A stretch of DNA of 43,847 nucleotides from a virus, in IMG/VR virus record IMGVR_UViG_3300015194_000005, positions 1-43,847 of that record; one strand, 5' to 3'. The notes under the pieces were generated by a model, which was not told the DNA's origin, made no database searches, and saw only the letters and a list, made by a program, of their open reading frames with translations. Both the position numbers and the translations under genes were made by a program. The stretch's first letter is position 1. The number at the start of each line of letters is the position of its first letter. Positions 7,859 through 41,760 of the stretch are shown piece after piece.

Positions 7859-10000
7859 ATGAGTTTCCAAATCTCCAAAGGCAATCCATCTTCCTTCTTC
7901 GTTGCTGCTTCCGATGCAACGGCAGCAGACAAGCAACGTGCGGATTTTGTGTGTTCCGGCACAGCCGATCAGACGCAGATTAATACCTACATTACGAAAT
8001 TACTGGCTAATGGCGGAGGGGCCGTCTATCTCTCTGAGGGAACTTTTACCCTATCGGCCACTATAGCGATCACAGGCGATGGGACATCGAATGGACCGAC
8101 CGTTAGTATCCTTGGAGCAGGGAATAGGAATACTATCCTGGTTCCTTCTACAGGAACGCATGGTGTCACCATCGCAGGAGCGACGCAGGTGAAGATATGG
8201 GATATTCAATTCAACTTACTTGGAACAAGTGACGCGATCCACTCAACAGCTCCTGTCGCTTCTCCCTATTGGTCCTTCTGGCAGTCGAGCTTTAAGAACC
8301 TTTTCATCAAAGGAGACTTCTCGGCTCACTCAGGATGGGCGATGAATCTTGAAGCTCCTTTCCGCTCTACGTTCGAGAACATCGAAGCACAGGGGCTGGG
8401 AAACGGCATCTATCTTAAGTCTACAAACGTGAACTTCAATCCTGGGAACTGTACGTTCATCCGCTGCTTCATGGATCTAAACGCGGCAGTCAATGGGGTT
8501 GCCTACAAGCTCCATACTCAAGACGGCAAGGGTCTGATGAATATTTGTACATTCATCCAGTGCGAAGCAATAGACTCGAAGGCTTCTTCCACTACGTCGA
8601 TTGGCTGGTACTTACTCGGTAGTACAACGGATTACCACCAGACGAAAGATATTGTCATCATCAACTCAAATATTGAGCAGTTCAATACTTGCGTGAAACT
8701 TGTGCATTCGTCTGATAACGACATTACTTTGTCCTATGCAGACACGAAAAATTCTTCCGCAACGGGCGCCATCTTCGACTTGTCTAGTACGGTCCAAGGT
8801 GGATCGACCAAGAATGAATGCTACGCACGATCTGGTTACGTCGCACCAAGCACCACGACGAATTTTGTGAACGACGGGAATACGGATGCAAATGCTTCAA
8901 ATATCTTCGGTAAGTTTGAAGCGTATGTAGATACAGGTGCAACCCTCTCAGCCACTACTACTTCGGCAACCATTCTAAAGGAAGTACATTCAACGGGAGT
9001 CGGGACAATTGATGCAAAGCTCACAGGGTTTCCTCTACCAGGGAACAAGATTCAGGCTGTGAAAGTTTCTTCTACGTCACCGACGTCGAACCAAGTTCTC
9101 ACAGCAACATCCTCTACAGCTGCCGGATGGTCTACACCAAGTACGAATGCTGCGACCGTTACGACGAATGCTAATCTCACAGGACCAATTACATCCGTCG
9201 GAAATACTACGTCCATTGCTTCGCAAACGGGGACAGGAACGAAGTTTGTCGTAGATACTTCCCCATCTCTCATTTCTCCTACTGTATCCTCTGGAGACCT
9301 GACCATCACGAGTGGAGCGATACAGGCTAATTCACAAGTACTATTCAATTCCAATGTCTACACCCAGTTCCAGGCAAACGTGGCAAACATTAATTTGAAT
9401 TTCAAGACCGTGGCAGGAACAGGAGGAATAGTTTGTACGGTCAATGGTTCTAAAGATGCCTTTATCGTTAATAGCACTGGAGTACTTCAGGGGCTCGCAG
9501 GAGGTTCTAGTGGGTCTTCTAAAATAGGTGGGATTATTTTCAATAGCTTCACGGATACTTCAAGTACAAGTACGAACGGGACAGAGGATGATCTGTATTC
9601 CTACACCATCGCTGCCAGCACGCTTGCGATTAATGGTGATAGTCTCTACCAGCGCGAACATGCACAGTTCGTGTCCTCAGCAACAGCTTCACGACGTATT
9701 AAGAAGTATTTTGGAGGTACACTCATCTTTGATTCTGGTGCATTGACTCTGACGCTCGGTGGAGATTTCATTCTCGATACACAGGTTATTCGGGAATCGT
9801 CTAGCGTTGTCAGAGTGAGTGTGAGTGTGGTTACGACCTCTGCTTCCTCCGTTCCATACGCAACATATACCCGCATTACTGGTCTTACATTGACCAATAC
9901 CCAAGTTCTCAAAACAACTGGCATTGCGGCAGGTACAGGCGCAGCGAGTGGAGACATCATCAATAAACTTTCTAAGGTAACATTCGAACCAGCCGCTTGA
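7859..10000 (+). CDS. Tailspike-like protein with pectate-lyase-type beta-helix
   Basis: 713 residues. The N-terminal domain has the signature of right-handed beta-helix tailspikes: a conserved start with ADFVCSGTADQTQINTYI, then GGGAVYLSEGTFTLSATI, then short repeating strand turns to about residue 340. The remainder is Thr/Ser-rich fibre-like beta sequence ending in a compact C-terminal domain. Such spikes bind or degrade surface glycans; no catalytic residues can be assigned by eye. I chose the ATG at 7859, five bases after the upstream stop, over an in-frame ATG at 7805 inside the previous gene because the family fold begins after it. Confidence 0.8.
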   Translation: MSFQISKGNPSSFFVAASDATAADKQRADFVCSGTADQTQINTYITKLLANGGGAVYLSEGTFTLSATIAITGDGTSNGPTVSILGAGNRNTILVPSTGTHGVTIAGATQVKIWDIQFNLLGTSDAIHSTAPVASPYWSFWQSSFKNLFIKGDFSAHSGWAMNLEAPFRSTFENIEAQGLGNGIYLKSTNVNFNPGNCTFIRCFMDLNAAVNGVAYKLHTQDGKGLMNICTFIQCEAIDSKASSTTSIGWYLLGSTTDYHQTKDIVIINSNIEQFNTCVKLVHSSDNDITLSYADTKNSSATGAIFDLSSTVQGGSTKNECYARSGYVAPSTTTNFVNDGNTDANASNIFGKFEAYVDTGATLSATTTSATILKEVHSTGVGTIDAKLTGFPLPGNKIQAVKVSSTSPTSNQVLTATSSTAAGWSTPSTNAATVTTNANLTGPITSVGNTTSIASQTGTGTKFVVDTSPSLISPTVSSGDLTITSGAIQANSQVLFNSNVYTQFQANVANINLNFKTVAGTGGIVCTVNGSKDAFIVNSTGVLQGLAGGSSGSSKIGGIIFNSFTDTSSTSTNGTEDDLYSYTIAASTLAINGDSLYQREHAQFVSSATASRRIKKYFGGTLIFDSGALTLTLGGDFILDTQVIRESSSVVRVSVSVVTTSASSVPYATYTRITGLTLTNTQVLKTTGIAAGTGAASGDIINKLSKVTFEPAA

Positions 10001-10567: not shown

Positions 10568-10786
10568 ATGACCAATCGCCCTTCCGATTCGGACCACAAC
10601 CTCCTCGTTCGTATCGATGAGAGGACGCAGCGTCTTGAAGAAGATGTGAAGTCCATGAAAGAACAATACATTTCAAGGGGAGAGTTCGAAGCAAGATTTG
10701 CCCCAGTACAAAAGTTGGTATTTGGGCTCGTTGGTGTGATACTATTATCCTTTTTTGGAGCTGTAGCCACTTTCTTCATAAAATGA
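10568..10786 (+). CDS. XhlA-like lysis accessory membrane protein
   Basis: 72 residues. An N-terminal charged amphipathic helix (DERTQRLEEDVKSMKEQY) is followed by one C-terminal transmembrane helix (LVFGLVGVILLSFFGAVATFF) ending in a Lys. This is the architecture of the XhlA/haemolysin-type proteins found in phage lysis cassettes. It starts after a C/T tract (CCTCTTCC) and overlaps the next gene by four bases (ATGA). Its place four genes upstream of an amidase fits a role in the lysis cassette, but similarity is by architecture only. Confidence 0.65.
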   Translation: MTNRPSDSDHNLLVRIDERTQRLEEDVKSMKEQYISRGEFEARFAPVQKLVFGLVGVILLSFFGAVATFFIK

Positions 10787-14970: not shown

Positions 14971-15374
14971 AGAGAGGATGGGGAAGAGACGGCTCCTAAT
15001 GTAGCTCCGTTCTTCAGTTCTTCGTATTTGAATTGCATGGCGTGGAGAAGGTCTACAATGGCTCCTTCCATTTGTTTTCTACTCTGCTCTGTGTGTTGTT
15101 CGCCGCTAAGCACCATAGAATTGAGGAGGCCAATTGCCTCCATAGCCTTGTGCATCGCATTTTTGTCACGCTCACTCGCTACCAATGCGCCTTTCGCCGT
15201 GCTCTTCACAAGGCCTAATGCCTCGTCAACTTTATCAATTTCTCTTTTTTGAAATTCACTCTCAATGAGCGAGAGAAGCTTGTCGTAAAATACATCAGTC
15301 AACCAAGGTGTGTTGGGTGCCTCCTCATAGAGGAGCTTGATGATTGCATCGCGGAGAGAATTAGAGTTGCTCAT
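14967..15374 (-). CDS. Hypothetical helical protein (135 aa)
   Basis: Predicted all-helical: IIKLLYEEAPNTPWLTDVF, then charged helices to about residue 110, with a Ser/Pro tail. No Cys. The start follows a C/T tract (CTTCCTTACTTACTCT); the stop overlaps the next start (ATGA). No recognised domain. Confidence 0.6.
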   Translation of the reverse strand: MSNSNSLRDAIIKLLYEEAPNTPWLTDVFYDKLLSLIESEFQKREIDKVDEALGLVKSTAKGALVASERDKNAMHKAMEAIGLLNSMVLSGEQHTEQSRKQMEGAIVDLLHAMQFKYEELKNGATLGAVSSPSSL

Positions 15375-16187: not shown

Positions 16188-16676
16188 TTACTTAGCACGA
16201 GCGAGAAGATCCTTTAGCTCAGAAACAGTGAATTTCTTTCCTTCGATCTCAATGGTCTTTTCCGTATCAACTGGAATGCTGGAAAGTCCTGTGATCTTCT
16301 TTGTAAGTTCAAGATCGAACTCTGGTATTTTAGCGATCTTGGCCCACTGAGAGTCACGGACACGACCCCATTCTTTTTCCCATCCTTCACGAGCATCTAA
16401 TGTGAAGTCGGAAAGAATTGTATTGATCGTATCTTTTATCTGCTCAAAGCGACTTTCTGTTACGGGTTTGTTCCAAGCCATGAGATTCTTGTGGTACCCA
16501 GAACCTTGAGATTCAGAACTCCCTTCACCTAGACAGAAAATCATCTTCTCAGACTGGCGAAGTCCTTTCGAGAAGTAACAGGAGGAACAGGAGGAACAGG
16601 AGTAACAGGAGGAACAGTAGGAACAGGAGTAACAGTAGAAACAGGAGGAACAGTTATCGTTCGTATCTTTAGACAT
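16188..16676 (-). CDS. Protein with Cys-triplet repeat head
   Basis: 162 residues. After MSKDTNDN the chain runs as C-x-x triplets (x is Ser, Tyr or Phe) for about nine copies, placing Cys at every third residue between residues 9 and 34. A normal soluble region follows, with a WEKEWGRVRDSQW segment and a short C-terminal domain with SELKDLLARAK. Such runs occur in uncharacterised phage and plasmid proteins; metal-cluster binding is a guess. The start tract (TTTCTCCCCCTATCT) is nearly identical to that of the gene at 22231. Confidence 0.75.
   Translation of the reverse strand: MSKDTNDNCSSCFYCYSCSYCSSCYSCSSCSSCYFSKGLRQSEKMIFCLGEGSSESQGSGYHKNLMAWNKPVTESRFEQIKDTINTILSDFTLDAREGWEKEWGRVRDSQWAKIAKIPEFDLELTKKITGLSSIPVDTEKTIEIEGKKFTVSELKDLLARAK
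16573..16653 (-). repeat. 9-bp tandem repeat encoding C-x-x triplets
   Basis: On the minus strand the unit is TGT TMC TMC (M is A or C), repeated about nine times with point variation. It keeps frame with the 16188-16676 gene and encodes its Cys ladder. Variation among units is limited to Ser/Tyr/Phe second and third codons, so Cys is strictly kept. Confidence 0.85.
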
Positions 16677-18065: not shown

Positions 18066-18101
18066 CGTACGCCTTCCGTACGGATGCGTACGGATGCGTA
18101 C
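18066..18101. promoter_or_regulatory. Helically phased CGTAC operator array
   Basis: CGTAC begins at 18066, 18077, 18087 and 18097 (spacing 11, 10, 10), the last copies embedded in the direct repeat CGTACGGATG. One-turn spacing places all copies on the same DNA face. Located between the KilA-N gene and the promoter of the HTH operon. Confidence 0.7.
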
Positions 18102-18132: not shown

Positions 18133-18780
18133 CTATAGAAGCTGTTTTAGCCTGAACAAACTTGTCATTCTTTGGCTGTAGTCTTTACCCTCTGCCATGA
18201 GTTTTATATCCGCTTTCTGAATAGTTTTTAATAGAGCTAATTGCGGAGGTGTAGCTAGTTGCCGTTGGCCACTCTCTGATGATCCAAATACAATCTTATT
18301 GATCATTCTGATTTCGTTTTTGTAGACTTCAATGTCTGTAGGCTTGAGATGGTCTTTAATCGACGCTGTTAAGTCTTTATAGTCATCCCCTACTTCATTA
18401 CGCAAAGAAATCAGATTATCATAGATCCATTCGATACAAAGCACCTTAAAATCGGCTGAGAGCCACATGGCAAAATCTATAAATTGGTATGGGTGCATCC
18501 ACGTTCCTCCTCGGTCACTCTTCATACCTTTACTTGTCCTAATAATGTCGTCTGACAAGAACACTCTATCAGAGTGATCTTGGTTTAAACGCCTTAGAAG
18601 GGCCTCAATCATCTCTTTGGTCTCTGGCCTCTTCATGTAATGGTCTAATCTTTTCTTAGTTTTGTGGATCTGCTTATTATAGACGACAAGGAGGTCATTG
18701 GCATTAAACATCCCATCTTTGCTTTCTTGCCGCACTTCATGGCTTCCAAGAACCCTCTTCATTATAACGGATGTTTTCAT
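18133..18780 (-). CDS. KilA-N domain protein (antirepressor-like)
   Basis: 215 residues. Residues about 24-120 contain the KilA-N fold: NANDLLVVYN, a central basic helix, and the signature GGTWMHPYQFIDFAMWLS at 91-108 followed by CIEWIYDNL. KilA-N proteins bind DNA and act as antirepressors or regulators in many phages. The C-terminal half is helical and charged with no clear second domain. It stands between a terminator upstream (18824-18857) and the CGTAC array downstream, so it has its own transcript. Confidence 0.85.
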   Translation of the reverse strand: MKTSVIMKRVLGSHEVRQESKDGMFNANDLLVVYNKQIHKTKKRLDHYMKRPETKEMIEALLRRLNQDHSDRVFLSDDIIRTSKGMKSDRGGTWMHPYQFIDFAMWLSADFKVLCIEWIYDNLISLRNEVGDDYKDLTASIKDHLKPTDIEVYKNEIRMINKIVFGSSESGQRQLATPPQLALLKTIQKADIKLMAEGKDYSQRMTSLFRLKQLL

Positions 18781-25342: not shown

Positions 25343-26137
25343 ATGGCAAATAACTGGTTCCCTCATGATTCTTCCGCGTCTACAGATCAAAAAATTCTCC
25401 TTCTGCGGTCTGAATTTGGGAATGTAGGTTATGCTTGGTATTTTATGATTTTAGAATGGCTCTGGCAAACTGCTGATGGGAAATCGCCCTACAACATTGA
25501 CTCAATTTCCTTCTTTTTACATGAAGATCGAACGATCATCGAACGATACATCCAACGATGTATTGATCTAGAGTTATTCATTAGAGAGAAAAATGAGTTC
25601 TATTCCTTCCGATTGACTCAAGAGAAAGACTTTTGGTTAGAGAAATCTAAGAATGGGAAGAGGGCTGTTGCTATTCGTGAAGCCAAAAAGAAGAAGATTG
25701 ACGAGAACAAAGAAAAGAATACTAGTATCGAACGATCATCGGATGATATATCGAATGATCATCCCGTACCAACCAACCGTACCAACCAACCAACCGTACC
25801 AACATCTATGTCCGATAAATCGGACGCGAAAATACAAGTGATGAATGAACTTGAGATTTTCTCACGCTGGCTTTCTGGTGCTGGTATCTTCTCTGACAGA
25901 AAAACGATTACGGAGAAGGCTAAAAAGAAGTGGAATGCTCGCCGTTCTAAATACAGTCCCGCGGAAATTACAAACGCTTTTAGCAACCTTGTCAACGAGC
26001 CTGACAGATGGAAATTGAACAACAACGGCCATCGTCCGATTTCGTGGTGGCTTGATTCTGATGATCGACTGGAAGAAATGAAGAACTGTCATTTGAAACG
26101 TTCCGCAAACCAAAAGCCTTTATATATTATTCCCTAA
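25343..26137 (+). CDS. Replication initiator-like protein (DUF4373/Lin1244-type N-terminus)
   Basis: 264 residues from the ATG at 25343 (tract CCCTTTTTTTCT). The first 80 residues read NNWFPHDSSASTDQKILLLR, GNVGYAWYFMILEWLW and a basic HTH-like end, matching the Lin1244/DUF4373 domain found in phage and plasmid replication proteins. A Lys-rich and then Pro/Thr/Asn-rich linker (residues about 110-155) is followed by a C-terminal helical domain ending in RPISWWLDSDDR, a DnaD-like trait. Likely loads the host replisome. Direct repeats inside the gene form an origin candidate. Confidence 0.75.
   Translation: MANNWFPHDSSASTDQKILLLRSEFGNVGYAWYFMILEWLWQTADGKSPYNIDSISFFLHEDRTIIERYIQRCIDLELFIREKNEFYSFRLTQEKDFWLEKSKNGKRAVAIREAKKKKIDENKEKNTSIERSSDDISNDHPVPTNRTNQPTVPTSMSDKSDAKIQVMNELEIFSRWLSGAGIFSDRKTITEKAKKKWNARRSKYSPAEITNAFSNLVNEPDRWKLNNNGHRPISWWLDSDDRLEEMKNCHLKRSANQKPLYIIP
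25527..25799. repeat. Iteron-like repeats inside the initiator gene (origin candidate)
   Basis: ATCGAACGATCATCG occurs exactly at 25527-25541 and 25727-25741, and ATCGAATGATCATCC at 25750-25764; a partial copy (ATCGAACGAT) begins at 25538. The two exact copies are 200 bp apart and in different reading frames, so the match is not due to protein sequence. Next comes a run of CCGTACCAA units with CGTAC at 25765, 25778 and 25795. The layout resembles lambdoid origins placed inside the initiator gene. Confidence 0.65.
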
Positions 26138-26148
26138 CCACAATTTTT

Positions 26149-26520
26149 ATGCGTTATGTTATTTCCTTCTTTGACCGCTCTACGAAACGTGTCCCTCAAG
26201 AGGATGTTCCACAGTTCATGGCCGCTATGAACAATTCAGGAAATGTTCTCTGTCGAGGGCAAATGTACTCAGGCAAGAGTATTTCTAGCATTCAATCTAT
26301 CATCGGATATTACAAAGACCGTGTTAGTGACGCGAATGAATCAGGTAAATTCTTCTGTAAATATGGATACCTCCACCCAGCAAGAGGCGAATGTTCCTGC
26401 AAGGATGCTGGGAAGGAACGGATGTTGAATGAAGAGGAAATGACTGCTTTGCCGTTATGGAACGAAGCGATAGATGCAAGCGCAACAAAATCTTTATTAT
26501 CTTCCTCAGCTCAGAGATGA
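26149..26520 (+). CDS. Hypothetical protein with Cys/His cluster (123 aa)
   Basis: 123 residues. N-terminal alpha/beta region (MRYVISFFDRSTKRVPQEDV), then KFFCKYGYLHPARGECSCKD, a likely zinc site, and a helical tail. It directly follows the initiator gene and its stop overlaps the next start (ATGA). A replication accessory role is possible from context only. Confidence 0.6.
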   Translation: MRYVISFFDRSTKRVPQEDVPQFMAAMNNSGNVLCRGQMYSGKSISSIQSIIGYYKDRVSDANESGKFFCKYGYLHPARGECSCKDAGKERMLNEEEMTALPLWNEAIDASATKSLLSSSAQR

Positions 26521-26783
26521 CAAACCTCCAAGAGCTATCCAAAGGCCACAAAGGTTGTCTTCGATGTGAGGGGGTTGGTTCTTACGTTTTCCATGGAGTA
26601 AAGATATTCTGTGAGAGCTGCCATGACATAGAAAAGATCACGGCAATGTATGCACTGATGGACTCCCATTTTCCGAAGCCTGATACAAAACCCGAGAATA
26701 AAACATGGGAAAAGAATGCAGAGATGTTAGGTTTCGCTGATGCCCAAAAAGTCCTCAACACTAAACCCATGACTAAAATATGA
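26517..26783 (+). CDS. DnaJ-type zinc-knuckle protein (88 aa)
   Basis: 88 residues from the ATG at 26517, overlapping the upstream stop. GCLRCEGVGSYVFHG then FCESCHDIEK: two CxxC knuckles with the CxxCxGxG flavour of DnaJ zinc fingers, then a helical tail. Probably binds one zinc. The stop overlaps the next start. Role unknown. Confidence 0.6.
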   Translation: MTNLQELSKGHKGCLRCEGVGSYVFHGVKIFCESCHDIEKITAMYALMDSHFPKPDTKPENKTWEKNAEMLGFADAQKVLNTKPMTKI

Positions 26784-32508: not shown

Positions 32509-34698
32509 ATGATTGATTCTCTAGATCAACAAGTGCAGAAGAGGAGCGGGTTGTTCCCGATGTACCATGAGATAGATGAGAAGGAACGCCTGTCTCAGGG
32601 TGATGTTTCTGATGAGTCGAGAGAATCTACATCTCAAGATTGGTCTGATTGTAAGTACATGATTGACTACCGAACGAATATCGGATGGGACTTAAAAGCT
32701 CGGAGAGGAATGAGGATCTATAACGTGACACAAACCATGCAGCCCGATGATGAGGTGAGTAGGATCTTTTTAGGTTACAGCCGCATGATCATTGATAAGG
32801 GGATCGAACAGATGACGGAAGGAGAGCCGAATTTTGACTTTGAACCTTTTGGGCCTTCTGATCATCTCAAGACGATAGTATGGAAGCATCTCATTAAGAT
32901 GGTTCTATCGAATTGTGAGTACAAGTTACATCAGGAGACCTTCTTTCGGGATTACTTTGTGACAGGATCAGGAGTCTTTGAGGTCTATATTGATTATCCA
33001 AAACGGACGCTACGGGTGCCGAATAGCTCTTGGCCAGGAGGGTTTGAGTCTATTGTTGTACAGGATAAGAGAAGGCCAAAGGTAGGAGTGCGCGCAGTCA
33101 ATCCAATGAATTGTTGGAGAAACCCGAACATTGATCATTCAAATCAAGTGCCTTCGTGCTTACGTAGACGCGTTATTACATGGAATCAGTTCGCTCAGGA
33201 CTTTGGCCGTTGCCAAAAGCCAGATGGAAGCCCGATGTATGAGGATCTCGACAAGTTAGCGAAGGGGACACATGTTGCTTTGTTCTATTACCAAGACGAG
33301 ATCCGAGACATCTATCGAATCTATGCCAAGCCTTTTGGTTCTCAGTCTGATGGGAAATTAACATGGCCTCCTCTCGACGGTCTTGGGATTCGTGTTCTCA
33401 ATAGCTCACTCAAGATCCACGAAGAGACGAAGGACAAGATTGTCTATCGCTCTACTGGTCTGAATATCCCAGGGATGTGTTCTCTACGATGGGGCACGTT
33501 CTTTGATGCGTACGATAAGACCTTCGATGGCAGCCATTCTGTTTATGGAATGGGACTGCCTCAGAGAATCGAAGGGGAAGACACGGCACTCCAAACGATG
33601 TTTAACATGTATCTAGACCAAGAGCGTTGGGCGGGGACTGTTGCGTTGAACTACAAAGGGAACTCTGGGGATAGTTACTTAGATCTGGATGCGAATAGGT
33701 TTGTAGGAGGAGAATTAATTGATGGAGAAGTAACACCGATGCCTCTTGGGATCTCACGTCCGAACTCTTTTGATGCTGTACAGAATGTTATTAACACGAA
33801 CGTCATTCCTTCAACGGGTATCAATCATCAACAGATGACAGGGGACACGAGTAAGACTGCCTTTGAGTTTGCTCAGCGCATTAAGGCAGCGAACAGAGGC
33901 GCAGAGCAACGTCTTGCTCGGTTAGAATCAGAAGTGTTCAAGCCTGTCGGTTCTCTCCTGCTTGCGAACTCTCTTACTGTCCTTACAGTCAATGAGTACG
34001 AAGCACTGACAGAGGAACAAGTGAAGACCGCCAGAGCACAGATTAAGTCAGGGAAGTCTACACTTTCTGACTACCAAGATTTGAATGGCAAAGACCCTAA
34101 GAAGAGGAACATTCAATACATCCCGCTAAAGGGTGAGAAGATTCGTGAAGACTTCACGGTCACGAAGAAAAGGAAACTTGAATATAACGCGGAGTACACG
34201 AAGACAGGGCAGACAACGAATACGCTTATTCCAGATAAGACCATGAAGGTAGAGACAAGCTACGTTCCGATGACAGAAGAGTACGTTTACCCTGCTGAAT
34301 ATATTGAGTCTGGTCTTCTGCCAGATTGTATTGTTGATAGCAGTAGAATGCTTGGAGATATGAAAGCTCAGGACGTCCAGAACTTCCAAGCTGCCACGAA
34401 CTTCTTACTTCAGCTCATGCTCTCAGGATACAAGGGGCTCGATCTGGATAAGGTTGCACAAATGACGCTCGAATTTGCAAACATTGACTCAAAGGATATT
34501 CTTACGACAAGTACAGGAGGGTCCGCAGTTCTCGACAAGATCAAGCAAACCCTAGAACAAGCATCTAACCCCCAAGCTAATGCTCAAGCACCTCAACAGA
34601 TGGCTCCTCAAGCAAACGCAGGAGCAGCTTTTCCCTTCGCAGGAGGACAAAGCCAGCCTCAAAACGCTCTCGAAAAGTCATCGTCAGGCGCTTTATAA
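32509..34698 (+). CDS. Portal protein (large, podovirus-like)
   Basis: 729 residues from the ATG at 32509 (context GAACTTTTTTCC); a GTG at 32485 is less likely. The N-terminal third has WKHLIKMVLSNCEYKLHQET and FFRDYFVTGSGVFEV, as in large portal proteins where a conserved G-xG precedes the wing. The stem-clip region includes QQMTGDTSKTAFEFAQRIKA then NRGAEQRLARLESEVFKPVG. A low-complexity Gln/Ala-rich C-terminal tail follows. It forms the DNA gate and motor dock; the length fits short-tailed phages. Right after the terminase genes. Confidence 0.82.
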   Translation: MIDSLDQQVQKRSGLFPMYHEIDEKERLSQGDVSDESRESTSQDWSDCKYMIDYRTNIGWDLKARRGMRIYNVTQTMQPDDEVSRIFLGYSRMIIDKGIEQMTEGEPNFDFEPFGPSDHLKTIVWKHLIKMVLSNCEYKLHQETFFRDYFVTGSGVFEVYIDYPKRTLRVPNSSWPGGFESIVVQDKRRPKVGVRAVNPMNCWRNPNIDHSNQVPSCLRRRVITWNQFAQDFGRCQKPDGSPMYEDLDKLAKGTHVALFYYQDEIRDIYRIYAKPFGSQSDGKLTWPPLDGLGIRVLNSSLKIHEETKDKIVYRSTGLNIPGMCSLRWGTFFDAYDKTFDGSHSVYGMGLPQRIEGEDTALQTMFNMYLDQERWAGTVALNYKGNSGDSYLDLDANRFVGGELIDGEVTPMPLGISRPNSFDAVQNVINTNVIPSTGINHQQMTGDTSKTAFEFAQRIKAANRGAEQRLARLESEVFKPVGSLLLANSLTVLTVNEYEALTEEQVKTARAQIKSGKSTLSDYQDLNGKDPKKRNIQYIPLKGEKIREDFTVTKKRKLEYNAEYTKTGQTTNTLIPDKTMKVETSYVPMTEEYVYPAEYIESGLLPDCIVDSSRMLGDMKAQDVQNFQAATNFLLQLMLSGYKGLDLDKVAQMTLEFANIDSKDILTTSTGGSAVLDKIKQTLEQASNPQANAQAPQQMAPQANAGAAFPFAGGQSQPQNALEKSSSGAL

Positions 34699-38827: not shown

Positions 38828-39703
38828 ATGGCCAATCCCTTAGTCAGTGAAATCATCACACGTGCTCGGGGACTAATCCGAGCAGAACAGGGTAGTGATG
38901 TCCCTGCTGTTTCAGATGATTTTATGATCTCTGCCATCTCTGATGCAGACAAAGAACTTTTGAGAGCTTTTCGAGGAGGTGGAGGGAATACTCCCTCTTC
39001 TATAGCCAGAGAGACGGGATTTAATCTTGCCTCAGAGACTGCTATCAATGACGTTAATGGTGTAACAACAGCAAGCACCTCGATCACTGTAGATTCTACG
39101 ACTGGGTATGATTCTGCTGGAGCTGCGATGTTTTGGGATAAGGAAATGTTTGACATCTTCTACTACACAGGAATCACGGCTACGACGTTCACGGGTGTCA
39201 CAGGGATTCAGTTTTCTCACACCGATAATACTGCCATTCAACCACTGCAAGCTCTCCCAGCCAACTTCAAGAACTTTCGGCACACTGAACAGTATGGAGA
39301 TGGCGTGAGTTTGAACGGTTTCCCTCTAACTTATATGGAAGGGCCACCCCTTCAAGGGAAATTCTCTATGGTGAATGATGGAACGACCACTTACTTGTGG
39401 TTATTCCGTGGTTCTACAGGCACCGCAGGAGTCTACTACGACAAATCAGGCTCAAGCATCACGACGACAGGGGACAGCGTCTCATTTTATGATGATTCTC
39501 TCTATTTCTACGTCTGGAGGTGTATCGAAATGTGTCTATTTGGCAGAGGAGAATACCAAACGATCCAAATAGCCAAGCAGAAGGGTGATTATGTCAAATT
39601 AGACGTCCTCAAGGATAGAAATAACGGCAGGAGAGTACGAGTCCGACAATTCCAGCCTGTTGGTTCTAATTACCGTCTGGCTTTACGTGAAAACGCTTTA
39701 TGA
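38828..39703 (+). CDS. Head-tail adaptor-like protein
   Basis: 291 residues. The N-terminus VSEIITRARGLIRAEQGSDV then SDDFMISAISDADKELLRAF is the helical start seen in podovirus tail-tube adaptors (gp11/TTPA-like) and other head-tail connectors. A beta domain follows, ending in a basic strand (RNNGRRVRVRQFQPVGSNYR). Located between small head genes and a likely nozzle protein. Start tract AATCCCCCTTCTG. Assigned by architecture and order. Confidence 0.62.
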   Translation: MANPLVSEIITRARGLIRAEQGSDVPAVSDDFMISAISDADKELLRAFRGGGGNTPSSIARETGFNLASETAINDVNGVTTASTSITVDSTTGYDSAGAAMFWDKEMFDIFYYTGITATTFTGVTGIQFSHTDNTAIQPLQALPANFKNFRHTEQYGDGVSLNGFPLTYMEGPPLQGKFSMVNDGTTTYLWLFRGSTGTAGVYYDKSGSSITTTGDSVSFYDDSLYFYVWRCIEMCLFGRGEYQTIQIAKQKGDYVKLDVLKDRNNGRRVRVRQFQPVGSNYRLALRENAL

Positions 39704-41760
39704 GTGAAATTACTATCCCCTACGTCAGCTTGCGCCGTCCTTGGACTGGTTTCAAATCATACTTTAGTGATCCAGCCAATGCAGGGTACAACAACCTCTC
39801 TTCCCCTTCTCAGAACTGTCTCATCACAGAGTCAGGAAGTGTGGAAAGCAGGAAAGGATACATGGCTGAGTTCTCTATTGGTGTAAATGGAAGTCCTGCT
39901 ACAGCTTTTTACCTTTCAACCTATGAAGTCGCTTTCTTTGCTCTCGGAACAAAACTCTATTATCGAGACTTTACAACGGCAGCGACCTACGACACGGGGA
40001 TCACTCTCACGACTGGGACGACGACGAGATTCGCTGAATATAATGGAGATATTTATTGTACTAATACGACTGACGGACCTCGACGAATTGTCTGTATGAG
40101 ACTCAATGGAAACGTCGCAGCTGGGGATACCTCTATCACGGTAGACGCAGACGGACTTTCACGCTTGCAGGTCTTTAGTGTTACGTCTGGGAATCTGATC
40201 ATTAACGGTACAGCTGAAGCCTTCACAAACCCTATTGTTCCTTACGGTTCTATTAATGGTGCAGTGACTGATGGAGGATTGATTAAAATAACTTCTACTG
40301 CGAATCATAACCTCCTCACAGGGGACTCTATTACGATCACAGGAGTTACAGGCACAACTGAGGCAAACGGAACGTGGACGGTGACGAAGATCGATGCTAC
40401 CCATTTCGATCTACAGACTTCCGTCTTCACGAATGCGTATGTCTCTGGTGGAGCATTTACATGGGATTATTCAGGTGGATCAGGTGGAAAGGTTCATCTC
40501 ACGACCACGGCAAGTCAGGCGTATACAGATAACACGTTCGCTCTTGTCGTTCAGAATATCTCTTCTGTTGTTGGGATTGAAAAGCCAAGTAAGATTGAGT
40601 TTTGGAAGTCTCGCCTTCATTTGATGGGATTCCCTTCGACAAAAAATGTTGATCAGCCTAATAACTCCGTTATTGCTGGTCAATTCATCGACGGTCAAGC
40701 GAACGAAATACAAAACATTATTGATTTTACCTATGGAACTGGTGGAGCGACGAAAATAACAGTCGGTTCTGGAGGTAAACTCACGAATATCTTAGGTGTA
40801 AAGGACTTCCTGTACTTCTTCCTTGAGAACAAAACTTATGCAGCAAACTCTGCGGATGTTGTAAAATCAGGTTCTGGGATAGGGAATACCGTCCCCGAGA
40901 TTAAAGACGAGCTACACGGGTGTCTCAACGAAGACTGCGCAACGATTATGGGTGAGAGCGGACTTCTCTACGCCACAAGTGACAAACGCATCATGATGAT
41001 CTCGACTGCTACCGACACGGGAGCTGCTGTAAGTGCCCCACAAGAAGACTTTGACGTTCCTATTAGGGGACATCTTGTAAATATGGACAACGATCAAACT
41101 GGAGCTCTTGTGTACCACTATAGAGGTGGACGGCAGACGATCTGCCAGTTAAAAGTTAGTGGTCAGTGGTATTGGTTCATCTATGACCATAACATCGTCA
41201 TTAACCTCGGCCAGACGACGCAGAATGGAGCATGGCAGCCTCCTCAGTCTATTTCTCCTGTCACTGCCTTCATGGAAAGGAATGGAGTCCTTTATGGAAC
41301 CGACTCATCAACAGATACGGTCTACAGTTACTTCACAACCTTCACGGATAACTTGAACCCTATTCAAGTGGTTGTTGCTACGGGAGAATTTAACGTAGGA
41401 AGTGCGATGATGAAGACTGCCATGATGCAGGGAACGATCAACCAACCTTCGCAGATTAACATGAACTGTTATGTGGTAAACGAAACACTCGGAAGGCGTA
41501 CTGGTTCAGCAAAGATCGTCAATGGGTCGGACTACAACTACAGTGATGACCAGTCTGTCGGTGCAGTCCCTGTAGGGAGTGGAGGCATAGGGCAGTCAAC
41601 GCCTATCGCAAAGTGGAAGAGGGAGTTTGGTGTCTATCCTTCCGAGGCGAACCGCGTTCAACTTATTGCAACAAACTTCCAAGATGGTGGTTACTTTAGT
41701 GTTTCCTATTACTCCCTTGTTGGAGATTCTTATCCTGGCACATTTAAGCCTCAGCTCTAA
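39700..41760 (+). CDS. Tail nozzle/stabilisation-like protein with FCCH-type insert
   Basis: 686 residues. The start reads YVSLRRPWTGFKSYFSDP, NNLSSPSQNCLITESGSVES and RKGYM, the usual opening of podovirus nozzle (TTPB-like) or stabilisation proteins. A small beta insert near residues 185-250 (SANHNLLTGDSITITGVTG, TTEANGTWTVTKID) matches the repeating Ig/FCCH-like module common in phage. Beta-propeller-like region follows (GVLYGTDSSTDTVYSY). Overlaps the adaptor by four bases. Likely forms the tail tube end. Confidence 0.7.
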   Translation: MSEITIPYVSLRRPWTGFKSYFSDPANAGYNNLSSPSQNCLITESGSVESRKGYMAEFSIGVNGSPATAFYLSTYEVAFFALGTKLYYRDFTTAATYDTGITLTTGTTTRFAEYNGDIYCTNTTDGPRRIVCMRLNGNVAAGDTSITVDADGLSRLQVFSVTSGNLIINGTAEAFTNPIVPYGSINGAVTDGGLIKITSTANHNLLTGDSITITGVTGTTEANGTWTVTKIDATHFDLQTSVFTNAYVSGGAFTWDYSGGSGGKVHLTTTASQAYTDNTFALVVQNISSVVGIEKPSKIEFWKSRLHLMGFPSTKNVDQPNNSVIAGQFIDGQANEIQNIIDFTYGTGGATKITVGSGGKLTNILGVKDFLYFFLENKTYAANSADVVKSGSGIGNTVPEIKDELHGCLNEDCATIMGESGLLYATSDKRIMMISTATDTGAAVSAPQEDFDVPIRGHLVNMDNDQTGALVYHYRGGRQTICQLKVSGQWYWFIYDHNIVINLGQTTQNGAWQPPQSISPVTAFMERNGVLYGTDSSTDTVYSYFTTFTDNLNPIQVVVATGEFNVGSAMMKTAMMQGTINQPSQINMNCYVVNETLGRRTGSAKIVNGSDYNYSDDQSVGAVPVGSGGIGQSTPIAKWKREFGVYPSEANRVQLIATNFQDGGYFSVSYYSLVGDSYPGTFKPQL

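Follow-up and report, generated by a model that had tools for sequence, protein, structure and literature searches.

The window analyzed here is a 43,847-base phage record whose products include a terminase, a portal-like protein, and RusA, along with a protein that weakly matches a capsid. The gene at 25343–26137 on the plus strand was characterized from its translation and with Pfam, PHROG, and AlphaFold. Its 264-residue product consists of a Lin1244_N winged-helix domain, a linker, and a helical C-terminal part. Pfam matches residues 5–82 to Lin1244_N (PF14297; E 2.2e-8; 35.1 bits, cut-off 25), and PHROG 2562, 'replication initiation protein', is matched with E 1.1e-13; the match to PHROG 9327 (primosomal) is weak (E 0.0014). 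On these profile matches the gene, which the first-pass annotation had called an initiator gene, is a Lin1244/Lin1753-like phage initiator. All 65 members of set A2 carry the Lin1244_N match in Pfam. The C-terminal DnaB_2 (DnaD-like) domain is found in 7 of the 65 and is absent from the window initiator in Pfam, and it is therefore not a constant trait of the family. Lin1244_N is the only Pfam match of the window initiator at E ≤ 0.01, so RepA_N (PF06970) is not detected by sequence, and no member of set A2 matches RepA_N in Pfam. NCBIfam has no family for four window proteins, the initiator included. A single-protein search of viral_contigs and genome_contigs with the window initiator gave no relative, but alignment-based searches did find relatives. 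A tblastn search of named phages returned 20 records, none spanning 80% of the query.

The AlphaFold model has a mean pLDDT of 75.1 and a pTM of 0.50, and its linker is poorly ordered (pLDDT about 46–54). Its third helix spans residues 63–75 and is followed by two strands that resemble a wing; this helix is probably the recognition helix of the modelled domain. The best VIA-align rows for the predicted domain are 4pql and 5kbj ('Rep-DNA complex'), which we take to be the same protein, and 4pt7 ('initiator'), with Z scores of 8.2–8.5 over 86 residues. The fold match is weak, and CRP chains (Z 8.0–8.1) fall inside the tie margin of these three. The accessible text of PMC7145576 describes 4pt7 and 4pta as RepA_N proteins. 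The model thus hints that the domain may be most like RepA_N initiators, with CRP chains tying. Foldseek with the predicted structure gave nothing at E ≤ 0.001, and a sequence profile run against solved structures gave six chains (best E 0.047), none of them named as an initiator.

No helicase loader was recognized beside the initiator; the genes at 26149–26520 and 26457–26780 have no informative match in Pfam or PHROG. The former, directly after the initiator, contains GQMYSGKS, which resembles a nucleotide-binding P-loop, and has no match to a Pfam or PHROG family. Elsewhere in the window, 18066–18101 holds CGTACGGATG in tandem (2.5 copies) with inverted CGTAC words; this operator-like stretch adjoins a repressor-like gene (18133–18777, PHROG 129). 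The minus-strand gene 16188–16676 has a tandem repeat (9/27 bp, AACAGGAGG) in register with its codons at 16574–16653. In the structural region, 39700–41760 encodes a 686-residue protein with an above-cut-off match (E 9.3e-8) to the E1_FCCH domain of ubiquitin-activating enzymes, which probably reflects a shared beta fold. The window has no exact terminal repeats of lengths 12–200, and tRNA and Rfam scans of it found nothing. Two terminase relatives (L003 and L004) have no recognizable initiator in the stretch examined.

Two repeat modules within the initiator gene

The first-pass annotation reported an exact 15-bp repeat occurring twice, 200 bp apart and in different frames, with further copies at 25538 (partial) and 25750. 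All of these copies are present: ATCGAACGATCATCG is exact at 25527–25541 and 25727–25741, and a copy with two mismatches lies at 25750–25764. The working unit is shorter than the 15-mer and is ATCGAACGAT, a 10-bp 4-2-4 dyad. Three units form cluster 1 on the plus strand (25527–25559; units at 25527, 25538, and, with one mismatch, 25550), which begins 184 bp into the gene. Cluster 2 (25727–25759, plus strand) lies 200 bp downstream, with units at 25727, 25738 (two mismatches), and 25750 (one mismatch). Both triplets step by 11 bp and then by 12 bp, the dyad units occupy all three codon frames, and identity between the 33-bp modules is 85%. Cluster 2 falls in codons 129–139 of the linker, where the repeats had been placed earlier. 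Cluster 1 falls in codons 62–73, which correspond to the third helix of the model (residues 63–75), and that the 25527 copy thus lies in the folded DNA-binding domain had been overlooked.

The low-complexity linker repeats that the annotation placed after the iterons are an A/C-rich tract, CCGTACCAACC(AACC), on the plus strand at 25764–25803 with 13/17-bp tandem periods. We infer that this tract is the counterpart of the tract behind the iterons in relatives. A perfect inverted repeat (GTCCGAT-AA-ATCGGAC, 25810–25825) was read directly after it, and an A-rich purine stretch on the plus strand (25679–25726), possibly an easily melted one, directly precedes cluster 2. The AT content in 100-bp steps from 25500 to 25899 is 0.57–0.66, barely above the surroundings, and the post-iteron tract is A/C-rich. 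No dyad copies were found at the upstream gene boundary.

The repeats were compared with codon shuffles, in which synonymous codons are permuted so that the protein and codon usage are kept and DNA signals are destroyed. The best local match between the domain and linker codons (gene regions 90–300 and 330–600) scores 18, and the maximum in 5000 codon-preserving shuffles was 14. The CCGTACCAACC tract has an out-of-frame tandem score of 19, a value reached by none of 1000 codon shuffles. The whole window contains 10 matches to ATCGAACGATCATCG with up to three mismatches against 1.12 expected, and none of 100 shuffles reached 10. The eight richest of 870 intervals (350 bp each) for 8-mer pairs out of 3-register all overlap the initiator gene. 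The largest 10-mer family within two mismatches (7 copies) is unremarkable, with 238 of 1000 shuffles reaching 7. The window gene fails exact-lag tests at 11/22 bp (98/200 shuffles) and at 5/10/20 bp (81/200) because its steps alternate between 11 and 12 bp and its tract is A/C-rich. These data confirm that the repeats are real and selected as DNA: they occupy three frames with matched 11/12-bp steps, and 0 of 5000 codon shuffles attain the likeness between the modules. The coordinates, spacing, and frames given in the first-pass annotation are correct. A GC-skew switch, proposed as a check, is absent from the site; the cumulative skew reaches its minimum at 15263, peaks at 34366, and does not turn at 25.7 kb, and gene direction confounds this measure.

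Linker repeats across Lin1244 genes

Relatives were gathered from named phages and two collections; the searches behind the family sets used the best 80 of 317, of 88, and of 507 relatives. Phages with a Lin1244 initiator include the Lactobacillus brevis phages LBR48 and JNU_P2. The first set comprised 166 genes, with start codons set by rule of thumb, of which 148 were complete and at least 180 residues long. Single linkage at 75% identity over 40% of the length grouped these into 66 clusters, one of them with 48 members. The first gene represented each cluster, and the window gene is one of the 66. Flanking genes served as controls (n = 58; 8 of the 66 clusters had no control gene). A second set of 36 new loci gave 33 complete genes and 22 new clusters.

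Out-of-frame self-matches were stronger than in any of 100 codon shuffles for 24 of 66 Lin1244 genes, the window gene included, compared to 0 of 58 flanking genes; the other 42 failed to exceed every shuffle. In the second, independent set, the out-of-frame repeats were above all shuffles in 12 of 22 genes and in 0 of 20 controls. Of the 24 strongest genes, 19 had their best step at 10 or 11 bp. The linker lag spectrum of the Lin1244 genes has excesses at 10, 11, 15, 20, 22, 25, and 33 bp. An excess of at least 4 occurs at lag 10 in 31 of 66 genes, at lag 11 in 23, and at lag 15 in 25, and in 0 of 58 controls at each lag. We attribute this spectrum to two elements: one is a series of dyads repeating every 11 bp, and the other is a purine tract built of 5-bp units of the AAAGT/AAAGG type. 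Both elements are individually significant in nine genes, and the 11-bp dyad block precedes the 5-bp tract in all nine. The linkers of 88 genes contain 99 4-2-4 dyads (52.2 expected) and 36 5-1-5 dyads (10.7 expected), and controls are near expectation for both. The two tests also pass other sequences: some blocks with 11/22-bp lags are A-rich and not dyads (L093), and the 5/10/20 test passes some sequences that do not resemble AAAG (L077, L154, L065, and L108).

The iteron words vary by lineage and include GCAATGC, AACGACCGTT, AAGCCACCC, and TAACACTGTTA, among others; other Lin1244 genes keep the layout of the window gene with different words. The AAAGT/AAAGG repeat is found behind the iterons in many Firmicutes/Bacteroidota members (e.g. 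L110, gene offset 468–530) and is less variable than the iteron word.

Repeat copies in the codons of the DNA-binding domain

Domain codons were compared with linker codons in the 66 genes. The match ranked at 9/200 shuffles or better in 13 genes, and 12 of these 13 matches end at gene offsets 160–230; 5 of 58 controls reach the same rank, at scattered positions. Of the 88 Lin1244 genes, 81 were long enough for an enlarged test. Sixteen, the window gene included, are significant at 5/100 shuffles or better where about 4 are expected by chance, and all 16 matches end at offsets 166–225 within the tested range of 90–300. Domain copies can be read by eye in L153 and L145 (GCAATGC), in L010, L015, and L077 (GGGGGGCT-like), and in L191 and L199 (TATAACA). 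The pooled positional profile has only a modest domain peak (bin 160, mean z 0.218, SE 0.074), and z exceeds 2.5 in 24 of 66 genes compared to 8 of 58 controls. In alignment columns, the family peak corresponds to window residues 45–64, slightly upstream of the window's own cluster (62–73). Synonymous codon identity is higher at codons 49–66 than in the rest of the domain by 0.124 (SE 0.021, 53 of 69 pairs). It is also raised at codons 73–88 (0.094), where no cluster is seen, and constraint alone is thus no marker of binding sites.

These data suggest, tentatively, that Lin1244-type initiators may have a two-part origin, one part of which lies within the codons of the DNA-reading helix itself. 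A competing view is that cluster 2 works alone and cluster 1 arose by chance or is a historical remnant, kept under constraint by the helix that it encodes. It fits the 65 of 81 Lin1244 genes that lack significant domain-to-linker likeness, the elevated synonymous constraint at the cluster-free codons 73–88, and the absence of such a domain cluster from RepA_N, lambda O, and Tuc2009 rep. We consider it unlikely, though still to be reckoned with: none of 5000 shuffles match the domain-to-linker likeness of the window gene, the 16 significant genes of 81 exceed the roughly 4 expected and share end points at offsets 166–225, and synonymous identity is raised at codons 49–66 (+0.124). If the recognition-helix cluster of a two-part origin is functional, it would be a rare case in which a binding site and its reader share bases. 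The bases of cluster 1 would then spell the word and at the same time encode part of its reader. Any change of the iteron there would alter the helix that reads it, and word and protein specificity would therefore have to evolve as one. Such sharing would explain why iteron words vary by lineage at two fixed positions.

The same DNA word in other viral contigs

An 18-mer of the window has one match among 2.9 million viral contigs, in contig L002. L002 contains six ATCGAACGAT units, each stepping exactly 11 bp from the last and together using all three frames (9683–9747), within the linker of a 324-residue initiator-like protein. The array scores 55, none of 300 codon shuffles come near it (maximum 31), and a 6-bp purine tract follows. 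The protein matches PHROG 9327 (primosomal, E 2.9e-17) and PHROG 270 (replication initiation, E 5.9e-12) and, weakly and under the cut-off, DUF1376; compared by profile with the Lin1244 alignment, it reaches a probability of 92.4% across 94 columns. A reading of the L002 match as an unrelated tandem repeat is rejected, since the initiator-like gene bears the same array. Three further exact ATCGAACGAT units at 11-bp steps lie at L002:12001–12032, in another ORF after an SSB gene and some 2.3 kb downstream from the initiator-like one, and are possibly a second origin block of the same phage.

A looser two-unit pattern gave 19 stretches in viral contigs, L002 included. L172 and L176 share a context, as do L173, L182, and L186, and there are therefore 16 distinct stretches. 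Three of the 19, on unrelated contigs (L002, L170, and L184), have the array in the linker codons of a gene that resembles a replication initiator. L170 has four exact units after the N-terminal domain (10585–10641; 0/200 shuffles) in a protein that matches DUF1376 (E 8.2e-22) and PHROG 3992 (primosomal). L184 has three units after the N-terminal domain (506–548; 1/200 shuffles) in a protein that matches PHROG 9327 (E 7.9e-6). The remaining 16 stretches are outside any recognized initiator gene, and 7 of these have no ORF of at least 80 residues over the match, while the others fall in genes that lack an initiator match; the gene scan behind these counts was uneven (L176, L184–L187, and others), with L176 skipped as a duplicate and L187 scanned with PHROGs only. 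The same word is thus kept between initiators that differ in their linkers and even in their domains, an outcome that bears out the expectation that the repeats would be conserved with divergent linker proteins. DUF1376 is a family with no assigned function; as the DUF1376-like proteins of L170 and L184 bear same-word iterons within their genes, DUF1376 proteins may be in-gene-origin initiators too.

Discussion

Taken as DNA, the repeat pattern argues strongly that the site is a phage replication origin embedded in its own initiator gene, and this is very probably its function. The first-pass annotation had proposed in-gene iterons as a candidate origin, and this is still the best reading. The dyads are probably the initiator's own docking sites. 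The winged-helix N-terminal domain would bind the 10-bp ATCGAACGAT dyads, which are about one helical turn apart so that bound proteins would all sit on the same side of the double helix. The bound initiator would then bend or wrap the DNA and open the adjacent tract. Cluster 2 and the low-complexity tract would form the core, where strand opening, helicase loading, and primase entry take place. Cluster 1 would be a second binding block, and a DNA loop of about 19 turns may bring it together with cluster 2; alternatively, the initiator bound there may block transcription of its own gene. The opening sequence is modelled on the descriptions of lambda O and pSK41 Rep in the accessible texts, and we infer the steps that go beyond the DNA pattern.

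A rival proposal is that the dyads are operators that only repress the initiator's own transcription and that the origin is elsewhere. Short dyads suit repressors, and a protein bound at cluster 1, 184 bp into the gene, could stop RNA polymerase. This proposal is improbable. The 11-bp block stands before the 5-bp tract in nine of nine genes, as the lambda iterons stand before an AT-rich region, and operators need no such tract; the same lags occur in Tuc2009 rep, where an origin is annotated; and the upstream gene boundary is without dyad copies. Low-complexity slippage in a tolerant linker can hardly account for the repeats: the linker is poorly ordered (pLDDT about 46–54) and such linkers do expand, but tolerated coding slippage comes in multiples of 3 and the excess here is at 10, 11, 20, 22, and 25, a step of 10 or 11 is the best one for 19 of the 24 genes with the strongest signal, and cluster 1 lies in a folded domain.

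With an origin inside the gene, an uncharacterized initiator family of phages and prophages of Bacteroidota, Firmicutes, and other viruses would gain predictable origins. Each could be located from sequence alone by searching the linker codons for dyads at 11-bp spacing and for the tract that follows. The family would also supply many naturally occurring pairs of word and reader, from which the rules of DNA choice by winged helices could be learned. The 'low-complexity linkers' of phage initiators would be largely DNA signals that are translated by necessity.

Comparison with known origins

Origins inside initiator genes are already known from lambda O, SPP1 gene 38, and pSK41 rep. Accessible text describes dyad-symmetric lambda iterons in the middle of gene O, adjoining a melting tract (PMC7466680, PMC6022878), and places the iterons before an AT-rich region (PMC7466680). 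The lambda iterons are annotated at gene O offsets 348–432. The lambdoid parallel drawn by the first-pass annotation holds for the layout, in that both genes contain dyad iterons, but not for the initiator family, which is Phage_rep_O for lambda and Lin1244_N only for the window gene in Pfam. The lambda iterons are 18 bp long at 20–24-bp steps compared to 10-bp units at 11/12-bp steps in the window, and lambda O, unlike the window gene, has no cluster in its domain codons. In the lag analysis lambda O gives its known steps of 20–23 bp, and it is also weaker by the out-of-frame statistic (7/200 shuffles).

In the portion of PMC5703833 available, pSK41 Rep has a winged-helix N-terminal domain and binding boxes in linker codons, and the linker protein is dispensable; RepA_N iterons are semi-palindromic direct repeats in the available part of PMC7145576. 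The window initiator may resemble RepA_N proteins in its winged-helix N-terminal domain, for which they are the best fold match (CRP chains tie), and in the putative binding boxes in its linker codons. The RepA_N comparator comprised 31 loci, of which 14 gave a gene in 12 clusters (lactobacillal). These differ in having a long in-frame 54-bp linker period (10 of 12 clusters), and a domain cluster is absent from 11 of 12, with the remaining one at offset 260. By its published description, in the accessible part of PMC6316719, SPP1 oriL has gp38-bound direct repeats inside gene 38 and an AT-rich unwinding element, and on that basis it resembles the window in having its repeats within the initiator gene.

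The closest lag spectrum is that of Lactococcus phage Tuc2009 rep (orf16), whose GenBank note reads 'contains origin of replication'. Its top lags are 15, 22, 10, 25, 11, and 33, nearly the spectrum of the Lin1244 family, and it combines 11/22-bp lag repeats within the gene with a 5-bp repeat tract. It differs in matching Rep_Org_C only in Pfam and in having no repeat copy in its domain codons. The open literature searched gave no description of a recurrent second cluster and a family-wide rule, and the open texts available mention Lin1244, DUF4373, or PF14297 only under iron-themed titles. What appears to be new is the combination of short dyads spaced by one turn, a small-unit tract, and a second block in the codons of the probable DNA-reading helix, recurring across a family.
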